A stretch of DNA of 64,000 bases from positions 24,826-88,825 of the forward strand of contig JAJQAK010000167.1 in the NCBI GenBank assembly GCA_021203845.1, read 5' to 3'. The DNA comes from Clostridia bacterium. Its GTDB lineage: Bacteria > Bacillota > Clostridia > Christensenellales > Borkfalkiaceae. Both the position numbers and the translations under genes were made by a program. Positions 3,261 through 5,318 of the stretch are shown in pieces (position 1 is the stretch's first letter; each line of letters opens with the position of its first letter). The notes under the pieces were generated by a model. That model saw nothing but the letters and a program-made list of their open reading frames with translations. It did not search any database and was not told the origin of the DNA.

Positions 3261-4352
3261 ATGACTAAAATAGACATTTTTTCCGGATTCCTGGGAGCCG
3301 GCAAGACCACGCTCATCAAAAAACTCATAAAGGAAGCCTACAAAGGCGAGCAGGTCGTTCTCATCGAGAACGAGTTCGGCGAGATAGGCATTGACGGCGG
3401 ATTTCTGGCGGATGCCGGTATAAAAATCAACGAGCTCAACTCGGGCTGCATCTGCTGCTCGCTTGTCGGCGACTTCGCCAAGGCGCTCAAGCAGGTAAAA
3501 AGTGAGTATTCGCCCGACAGAATAGTCATAGAGCCCTCCGGGGTGGGTAAGCTTTCCGACGTCATCCGCGCAGTGGAAAGAGCAGAGCTCGAGGACTGCG
3601 AGATATCCGGGCTCACGACAGTCGTGGACGCCAACAAGTGCAAACTCTACATGAAGAATTTCGGGGAGTTTTTTTGCGACCAGGTGGAGACCGCGGCGTG
3701 TATAGTGTTCAGCCACGCCGACACTGCGCCCGAGACGAAGCTCGCCGAGGCCGTGAAGCTCGTAAGGGAGCACAACGGCAAGGCCACGACAATAACCACC
3801 CCGCTGGACGAGATAGACGGGAAAGAAATAATGGCTGCGATAGAGCACAGGGACACGCTTTCGGAGGCCCTCGCCCAGTTCGAGGAGGAACACAGAAAGG
3901 AAAGCGAGGAGCACCATCATCACGATGACGACGACGATGACGACGAGTGCTGCGGCCACGACCACGAACATCATCACCATCACCACCATGACGGGGAAGA
4001 TGAGGACGAGGACGACGATGAGAACGAACATCATCACGACCATGACCACGAGCATCACCACCACCATCATGCGGACGAGGTGTTCACGAGCTGGGGCGTG
4101 GAGACGGGGAAGAAATATTCCGCTGAAGAGATCGAAAAGATTCTCACCGCCTTCGACGGGAGCGAGAAATACGGCGTCATACTGAGGGCGAAGGGAATTG
4201 TCCCCTCACCGGACGGCAGGTGGCTCCATTTCGACTACATCCCCGGGGAGACGGACATCCGCGAGGGCGCCGCGGCATACACCGGGAGGGTGTGCGTGAT
4301 AGGCAGCAACATAGACGAGAAGGCGATTGAGGAGCTTTTGGGCGTCGGGTGA
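3261..4352 (+). CDS. CobW/P47K-family GTPase (COG0523) with His/Asp-rich metal-binding segment
   Basis: Walker A 'GFLGAGKTTLIKKL', 'NSGCICCSL' CxCC motif, 'EPSGVGKLSDV', poly-His/Asp stretch. Confidence 0.9.
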   Translation: MTKIDIFSGFLGAGKTTLIKKLIKEAYKGEQVVLIENEFGEIGIDGGFLADAGIKINELNSGCICCSLVGDFAKALKQVKSEYSPDRIVIEPSGVGKLSDVIRAVERAELEDCEISGLTTVVDANKCKLYMKNFGEFFCDQVETAACIVFSHADTAPETKLAEAVKLVREHNGKATTITTPLDEIDGKEIMAAIEHRDTLSEALAQFEEEHRKESEEHHHHDDDDDDDECCGHDHEHHHHHHHDGEDEDEDDDENEHHHDHDHEHHHHHHADEVFTSWGVETGKKYSAEEIEKILTAFDGSEKYGVILRAKGIVPSPDGRWLHFDYIPGETDIREGAAAYTGRVCVIGSNIDEKAIEELLGVG

Positions 4353-4364
4353 CCGGAGGTGTGC

Positions 4365-5318
4365 ATGCCTAAAAAAAGAGATGTGGAAGTTCTTATGATT
4401 CTGGGCTTTCTGGAATCCGGCAAGACGACTTTTTTGCAGGAGACCATGGAGGACCCCAGGACCGACGACGGCGGACGCACGCTCCTTCTCGTATGCGAGG
4501 AGGGGGAGACGGAGTACAATCCCGGAAAGTTCGCGGTGAAAAACCTCGACACCAGGACCCTTTCCGACAAGGAGGGGCTCACCGAGCAGTATCTCACCGC
4601 GCTCGATAAAGAGTGTCAGCCCACGCAGGTGTACGTCGAGTACAACGGGATGTGGGAGCTCCAGAAGTTCTTCGAGGCGATGCCGGAGAACTGGATGATA
4701 GTCAGCGCGATAGTCTTTTTCGATGCGTCCACGTTCCTTTCGTACAACGCCAACATGAGACAGCTCGTTTACGACAAGATTTCCCTGTCGCAGATAGTCG
4801 TCCTAAACAGGTTCAAAAATGAGTACGACAGGCTGGAGTACCACAAGGTCCTCCGCGCCGTGTCGAGGCGCATGGACATAATATACGAGGACGAGAGCGG
4901 GAAGACCGAGAGGGACGACATAGAGGATCCGCTCCCCTACGACATCACCGCGCCCGTCATAGAGATAGAGGACAGGGACTACGCGTACTTTTACAGGGAC
5001 GCCGTGGAGAATCCCGGCAACTACGACGGCAGGACGGTCAAGCTCACCGCCATGGCGGAGGTGAAAAAGGGCTTCCCGCAGGGGATGATCCTCGTCGGAA
5101 GGCACATCATGAACTGCTGCGCCGCGGACATTGCGTACAACCCGTTCGCGCTCAAGGGAAAATCCCTCGGAGACATAAAGGCCCGGGACTGGCTCAAGGT
5201 TACGGCAAAGGTCTCTTACGGGACGTGCCCCCTGTACCGGGGCGACGGACCCATGTTCACGGCCGTGGAGATAACCCCCGCGAGTGAGCCGGAGGAAGTG
5301 GTCGCGACCTTCTACTGA
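4365..5318 (+). CDS. CobW-like GTPase fused to a TIGR03943/DUF1980-like C-terminal domain
   Basis: 'LMILGFLESGKTTFLQETM' P-loop; C-terminal 'NYDGRTVKLTAMAEVKKGFPQGMILVGRHIMNCCAADIA...WLKVTAKV' resembles the YcgQ/TIGR03943 C-terminus. Confidence 0.75.
   Translation: MPKKRDVEVLMILGFLESGKTTFLQETMEDPRTDDGGRTLLLVCEEGETEYNPGKFAVKNLDTRTLSDKEGLTEQYLTALDKECQPTQVYVEYNGMWELQKFFEAMPENWMIVSAIVFFDASTFLSYNANMRQLVYDKISLSQIVVLNRFKNEYDRLEYHKVLRAVSRRMDIIYEDESGKTERDDIEDPLPYDITAPVIEIEDRDYAYFYRDAVENPGNYDGRTVKLTAMAEVKKGFPQGMILVGRHIMNCCAADIAYNPFALKGKSLGDIKARDWLKVTAKVSYGTCPLYRGDGPMFTAVEITPASEPEEVVATFY

Follow-up and report, generated by a model that had tools for sequence, protein, structure and literature searches.

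Described relatives and architecture of the fused protein

The membrane pair YcgQ/YcgR of Bacillus subtilis, which is ScfB/ScfA in Streptococcus pyogenes and also SMU.747/SMU.746, consists of a TIGR03943/DUF1980 protein and a DUF318 permease; the pair is widespread among Gram-positive bacteria and matters for host fitness, but has no known function (PMC5584981). The protein described here, encoded in a 64,000-nucleotide stretch of DNA from a Clostridia bacterium (the window), shares the C-terminal domain of YcgQ, including its CC-x-x-D motif, but lacks the membrane anchor and the permease and has a G3E GTPase in front. With the COG0523/G3E metallochaperones (CobW, YjiA, ZagA/YciC, ZigA, ZNG1) it has in common the GTPase fold, the P-loop and the ExxG motif, YjiA being the nearest structure, whereas the CxCC motif, the NKxD motif and the CobW_C domain are missing and a DUF1980_C domain is present instead. 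The nickel G3E GTPases HypB and UreG resemble its N-terminal half in modelled fold, but there is no sequence membership, and the C-terminus and gene context are different. The fusion combines two known families, COG0523 GTPases and YcgQ proteins, in a new way. In its conserved form it has apparently gone undescribed so far, as no description was found in the literature searched, a search that did not extend to subscription papers and hence does not prove absence; within the same literature no mention of TIGR03943 was found, and DUF1980 appears just in a lipoprotein table. The features of the fused gene are as follows.

4365-5318, + strand: fused gene of 317 amino acids, G3E GTPase half plus DUF1980_C (YcgQ C-terminal) half (open reading frame and Pfam; orthologues in at least 33 genomes of the genus and in 19 families of the class)
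4355-4359, + strand: GGAGG Shine-Dalgarno sequence between the partner gene and the fused gene, 5 nt before the ATG (sequence read directly)
4383-4898, + strand: G3E/CobW-type GTPase half, approximately residues 7-178 (PF02492; hhalign to CobW_C GTPases; Foldseek matches to YjiA, HypB and UreG)
4404-4427, + strand: P-loop GFLESGKT, residues 14-21 (conservation among 48 diverse fused proteins)
4944-5297, + strand: DUF1980_C domain, residues 194-311, an OB-like five-stranded barrel in the model (PF21537; hhalign to YcgQ; AlphaFold2 and Foldseek OB matches)
5115-5129, + strand: C251-C252-x-x-D255, candidate metal or active site (alignment of fused and membrane-anchored YcgQ proteins)

The open reading frame begins with an ATG at 4365 and its stop codon ends at 5318; 12 nt separate the ATG from the stop codon of the upstream partner gene. 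The proposal of an earlier note that the N-terminal half is a COG0523-type GTPase is borne out by a Pfam match to cobW (PF02492, 25.7 bits over residues 9-156; curated cut-off 20.7 bits) and by the P-loop, of which G14, G19 and K20 are invariant and T21 is nearly so among 48 diverse fused proteins. E92, N94 and G95 of the ExxG motif (E92-x-N94-G95) are likewise invariant in these 48 sequences. The metal-binding CxCC motif is absent from the fused protein, the hhalign alignment of the fused family with CobW_C GTPases having a gap at the CICC stretch of the partner, and the canonical guanine-specificity motif NKxD is replaced by N148-R149-F150, in which N148 and R149 are conserved in at least 90% of sequences. 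Because both motifs are missing, the fused GTPase may bind neither metal nor GTP specifically.

The C-terminal half was matched by DUF1980_C (PF21537) with 51.2 bits over residues 194-311 (curated cut-off 25.9 bits), and by the C-terminal part only of the NCBIfam model TIGR03943 with 64.9 bits over residues 183-311, which is below the whole-protein cut-off of 88.8 bits. Profile-profile alignment (hhalign) with clostridial YcgQ proteins extended over 122 columns with a probability of 99.9% and an E value of 5.7e-31, in agreement with the YcgQ/TIGR03943-like domain that had been proposed. C251 and C252 are invariant in 57 of 57 fused and 20 of 20 membrane-anchored YcgQ proteins, and D255 is kept in 56 of the 57 and in all 20. 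Pfam found no match to PF09323, the N-terminal membrane part of YcgQ, and no membrane segment was predicted in the fused protein or in its relatives. That the C-terminus could be the ordinary CobW C-terminal domain, which the earlier note had named as the outcome that would overturn its reading, is ruled out by the absence of a Pfam match to PF07683 (CobW_C), which does match the upstream gene, by the YcgQ profile match, and by the alignment of the CobW_C GTPase profile (hhalign, 99.4%) with residues 8-176 only.

An AlphaFold2 model built from 48 diverse orthologues (mean pLDDT 94.2, pTM 0.73) superseded an earlier model from 18 sequences (pLDDT 84). The solved structures nearest to its N-terminus in Foldseek are the G3E metal GTPases YjiA (the Zn-bound form first), HypB and UreG; a direct PDB sequence search gave only a marginal match to YjiA, with a profile. 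The C-terminus is modelled as an OB-like barrel, for which the best Foldseek match is 8d0b_C (TM-score of 0.63 by target length), and the OB matches (8d0b_C, 3kdf_A, 1quq_D) include TEN1/CST, RPA14 and AspRS.

The gene pair and its permease-containing relatives

The fused gene of the window is the second of a conserved pair. Its partner lies directly upstream and had been overlooked in the earlier note.

3261-4352, + strand: partner gene, a canonical COG0523 GTPase with CobW_C, 363 amino acids (PF02492, 130.6 bits; PF07683, 27.1 bits)
3447-3458, + strand: CxCC motif of the partner gene, C63-I-C-C66 (invariant in 10 partners)
3891-4070, + strand: His/Asp-rich insert of the partner gene (the sequence itself and partner alignment)
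4083-4340, + strand: CobW_C domain of the partner gene, residues 275-360 (PF07683, 27.1 bits)

Among the fetched loci there are 79 unique fused genes, of which four are at contig ends and 75 could be assessed; in 75 of 75, a CxCC-containing CobW_C GTPase gene adjoins the fused gene on the same strand (69 upstream, 6 downstream). No permease gene is located within 5 kb of the fused gene in any of the 79 loci, which extends to the whole set what the earlier note had remarked for the window. Two loci (L102 and L103; L103:4183-6236) have the fused gene first, on the opposite side of the CobW_C gene; thus, gene order can change without breaking up the pair. The His/Asp-rich insert is variable in the partner alignment, and is absent or short in some partners from the permease-containing operons described below. 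Fused proteins of one family (f63) are strongly diverged. The window also encodes, at 1711-2514 on the + strand, a protein with an N-terminal membrane segment, an acidic middle and a conserved basic C-terminus, the tail of which may resemble DUF2188/YegP; its homologues adjoin the GTPase pair in about half of 33 loci compared.

In other Clostridia, profile searches found the two halves in separate proteins, the GTPase half at the N-terminus of a protein of some 530 amino acids and the C-terminal half approximately 1.5 kb away in a protein of 230 to 290 (about 260) amino acids. Twenty such loci (L064-L083) were fetched, and the order of this split operon is a CobW_C GTPase, then a GTPase::permease (DUF318/ArsP_1) protein, then YcgQ; Pfam places cobW and ArsP_1 in one protein, and DUF1980 and DUF1980_C in the next. 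These proteins of about 530 amino acids, in which a G3E GTPase and a DUF318/ArsP_1 permease are fused (for example, L064:2502-4076 on the - strand and L068:2553-4130 on the + strand), are seemingly also undescribed within the literature searched. Three genomes (G446, G274 and G206) have the GTPase and the permease as separate genes without change of order, giving a four-gene form; in three others (G303, G167 and G207) the CobW_C gene is adjacent to the split operon but divergent, and in L077 it does not fall within the fetched stretch.

The split operon resembles the fused pair in its GTPase half, C-terminal domain, partner gene and gene order, and differs in possessing the permease and the membrane part of YcgQ, so that proteins of about 530 and 260 amino acids correspond to one of 317. 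Because the same parts are carried in the same order by these Clostridia, the GTPase half is a regular partner of the DUF318 permease, and the fused protein looks like a stripped-down, permease-free version of the membrane system. The suggestion that the GTPase replaces the usual membrane partner therefore holds insofar as the permease and the YcgQ anchor are missing from the window's protein, but a substitution is not supported, since the GTPase is a normal component of the system in these relatives, fused to the DUF318 permease or encoded directly upstream of it.

Distribution, constraint and origin of the fusion

A match to the fused protein was found in 36 of 61 close relatives. The survey of other genomes that had been called for, a profile search, recovered the full-length fusion in 73 of 393 genomes of the same class, representing 19 families, and the fusion is also present in two genomes (G737 and G765) outside the class but within the phylum. 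Recurrence of the same architecture in so many genomes rules out a chance fusion or an assembly artefact. Ratios of nonsynonymous to synonymous change (dN/dS) between pairs of orthologues are approximately 0.02 to 0.17, with both halves constrained, and the fused gene is under purifying selection. Some genomes (for example, G083, G217, G358 and G387) encode two fused copies, the second being more diverged. In three genomes (G206, G274 and G269) the fused pair is found alongside the split operon with its permease; the two forms are thus compatible within one genome and may differ in their roles.

In the GTPase tree, the fused GTPase halves group in a single clade (SH-aLRT 99), as do the fused OB domains in their own tree (SH-aLRT 94). 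A first reading of the GTPase tree, in which the fused GTPases were nested within the permease-type GTPases, was dropped: with the AU test, a sister-clade relationship between split and fused GTPases is not rejected (p 0.58), and for this reason the tree gives no direction of change. Membrane-anchored YcgQ is also found in Bacilli that have no such GTPase, namely B. subtilis, Streptococcus and Enterococcus (PMC5584981); on that ground, loss of the permease and anchor is the simpler reading. The direction from split to fused is thus the parsimonious one, being based on how widely membrane YcgQ is distributed. Given the colinear gene order, a single in-frame deletion would suffice to convert the split form into the fused one; the fused gene may have arisen once by such a deletion, of approximately 1.4 kb as estimated from the coordinates of L064, that would have taken out the permease and the membrane anchor of YcgQ.

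Metal context, compartment and possible functions

The link to zinc is taken from the split relatives and not from the fused loci. Split operons are located beside genes of ABC-3 and ABC_tran (ABC transporter ATPase) proteins in L080, beside ABC-3 and FUR in L081, and beside FUR in L064, L069 and L082; in seven genomes (G185, G253, G434, G167, G303, G269 and G207), comparison of coordinates placed ABC-3 genes no more than about 4 kb from the split operon. Since ABC-3 transporters variously import Zn, Mn or Fe, zinc is the most likely candidate without being the sole one, and Fur-family regulators are equally varied in their metals. No conserved Zur-type operator was found among 24 upstream regions of the pair in the genus, and the window's genome (92.6% complete) yielded no match to ABC-3, Fur-family or ZIP proteins, nor to PF03773 (DUF318/ArsP_1), the permease that the earlier note had suggested seeking elsewhere in the genome. 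With no operator, Fur, ABC-3 or ZIP found, zinc control of the window's operon is unsupported. A Fur-family gene is present in 26 of 61 genomes of the genus, and ABC-3 (ZnuB/MntB-type) is missing from all seven members of the family in the class sample.

The DUF1980_C domain of the fused protein is predicted to be cytosolic because the protein has no predicted membrane segment. A simple hydropathy count, which is heuristic, gives YcgQ proteins three membrane segments, and the charges put the C-terminal domain outside; the published prediction for ScfB has two segments (PMC5584981), by which the C-terminal domain would be inside. An outside topology, if correct, would mean that the domain has changed compartment.

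The explanation that best accommodates these observations, in which our confidence is middling, is that the two genes encode a conserved, permease-free module for metal handling, with the fused protein as its second subunit, acting most likely on cytosolic zinc; the metal and the biochemistry are what we infer. The CxCC-containing partner GTPase would load zinc and form a complex with the fused GTPase under nucleotide control; the Cys-Cys-Asp site on the OB-like domain might then relay the metal to clients in the cytosol, or from one partner to the other. In the split operon, this handover would be coupled to the permease. The metal-trafficking role put forward in the earlier note is judged likely. 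A bolder form, which we advance tentatively as a possibility, is that a transporter-associated GTPase complex has been made soluble, such that a membrane-anchored domain (outside by the heuristic topology) now operates in the cytosol with two paralogous GTPases, one with CxCC and one without, as a heteromeric zinc relay. Such a soluble relay, if real, would represent a novel class of metallochaperone machine.

Other explanations were weighed against the zinc module. The GTPase pair could instead be a metal-status sensor or assembly factor that delivers another cofactor or metal (cobalt, manganese or iron), as CobW does for cobalamin: members of COG0523 serve differing metals, as in the CobW versus the ZagA/ZNG1 types (PMC7895991, PMC2770081), and the ABC-3 and Fur genes of the split loci do not single out zinc. 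This seems rather doubtful when set against the His/Asp-rich CxCC partners and the ABC-3/Fur context, which are typical of zinc-linked COG0523 genes (PMC2770081), and against an unsystematic scan of open reading frames that saw no cobalamin gene beside 20 wider fused loci. It is improbable that the fused protein docks in trans on an unlinked DUF318 permease as a cytosolic energiser or gate. In split relatives this GTPase half does occur fused to the permease, and 16 of 70 genomes that have only the fused form encode some ArsP_1 protein, but the other 54 and the window's genome have none. The 61 genomes of the genus gave three weak ArsP_1 matches, and in none of the 79 fused loci does a permease gene lie within 5 kb. 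ArsP_1 is less frequent among genomes that have the fusion (19 of 73) than among the others (164 of 320), in counts that ignore kinship. The 54 genomes without ArsP_1, together with the lack of a predicted membrane segment and of a permease within 5 kb, also leave the earlier note's idea of trafficking to the envelope unsupported.

An activity in translation or replication, with the OB-like domain binding RNA or DNA, would suit the Foldseek matches of the C-terminus to nucleic-acid-binding OB folds (TEN1/CST, RPA14, AspRS) and the position of the window's pair beside a ribosomal protein operon. It is nevertheless quite unlikely, in that the OB fold is generic, the kinship in sequence is to YcgQ, a permease-paired membrane protein, and the ribosomal neighbourhood is not conserved at most other loci. 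Least credible of all, and very improbable, is a functionless remnant of the membrane system in the course of decay: the permease and anchor are indeed missing, but conservation across 19 families, dN/dS well below 1 in both halves, linkage to the partner in every assessable locus and an invariant CC motif are opposed to it.

Together, the GTPase-DUF1980_C fusion and the GTPase::permease fusion tie YcgQ/YcgR to a COG0523 metallochaperone GTPase and to ABC-3 and Fur genes. The C-terminal domain of YcgQ can work without a permease or membrane anchor, and the fused form offers a small soluble protein for biochemistry. The main value of the finding is that it links a widespread membrane pair of no known function with a metallochaperone GTPase, and so provides a testable hypothesis for the YcgQ/YcgR family, that of metal handling, with zinc the most likely metal.
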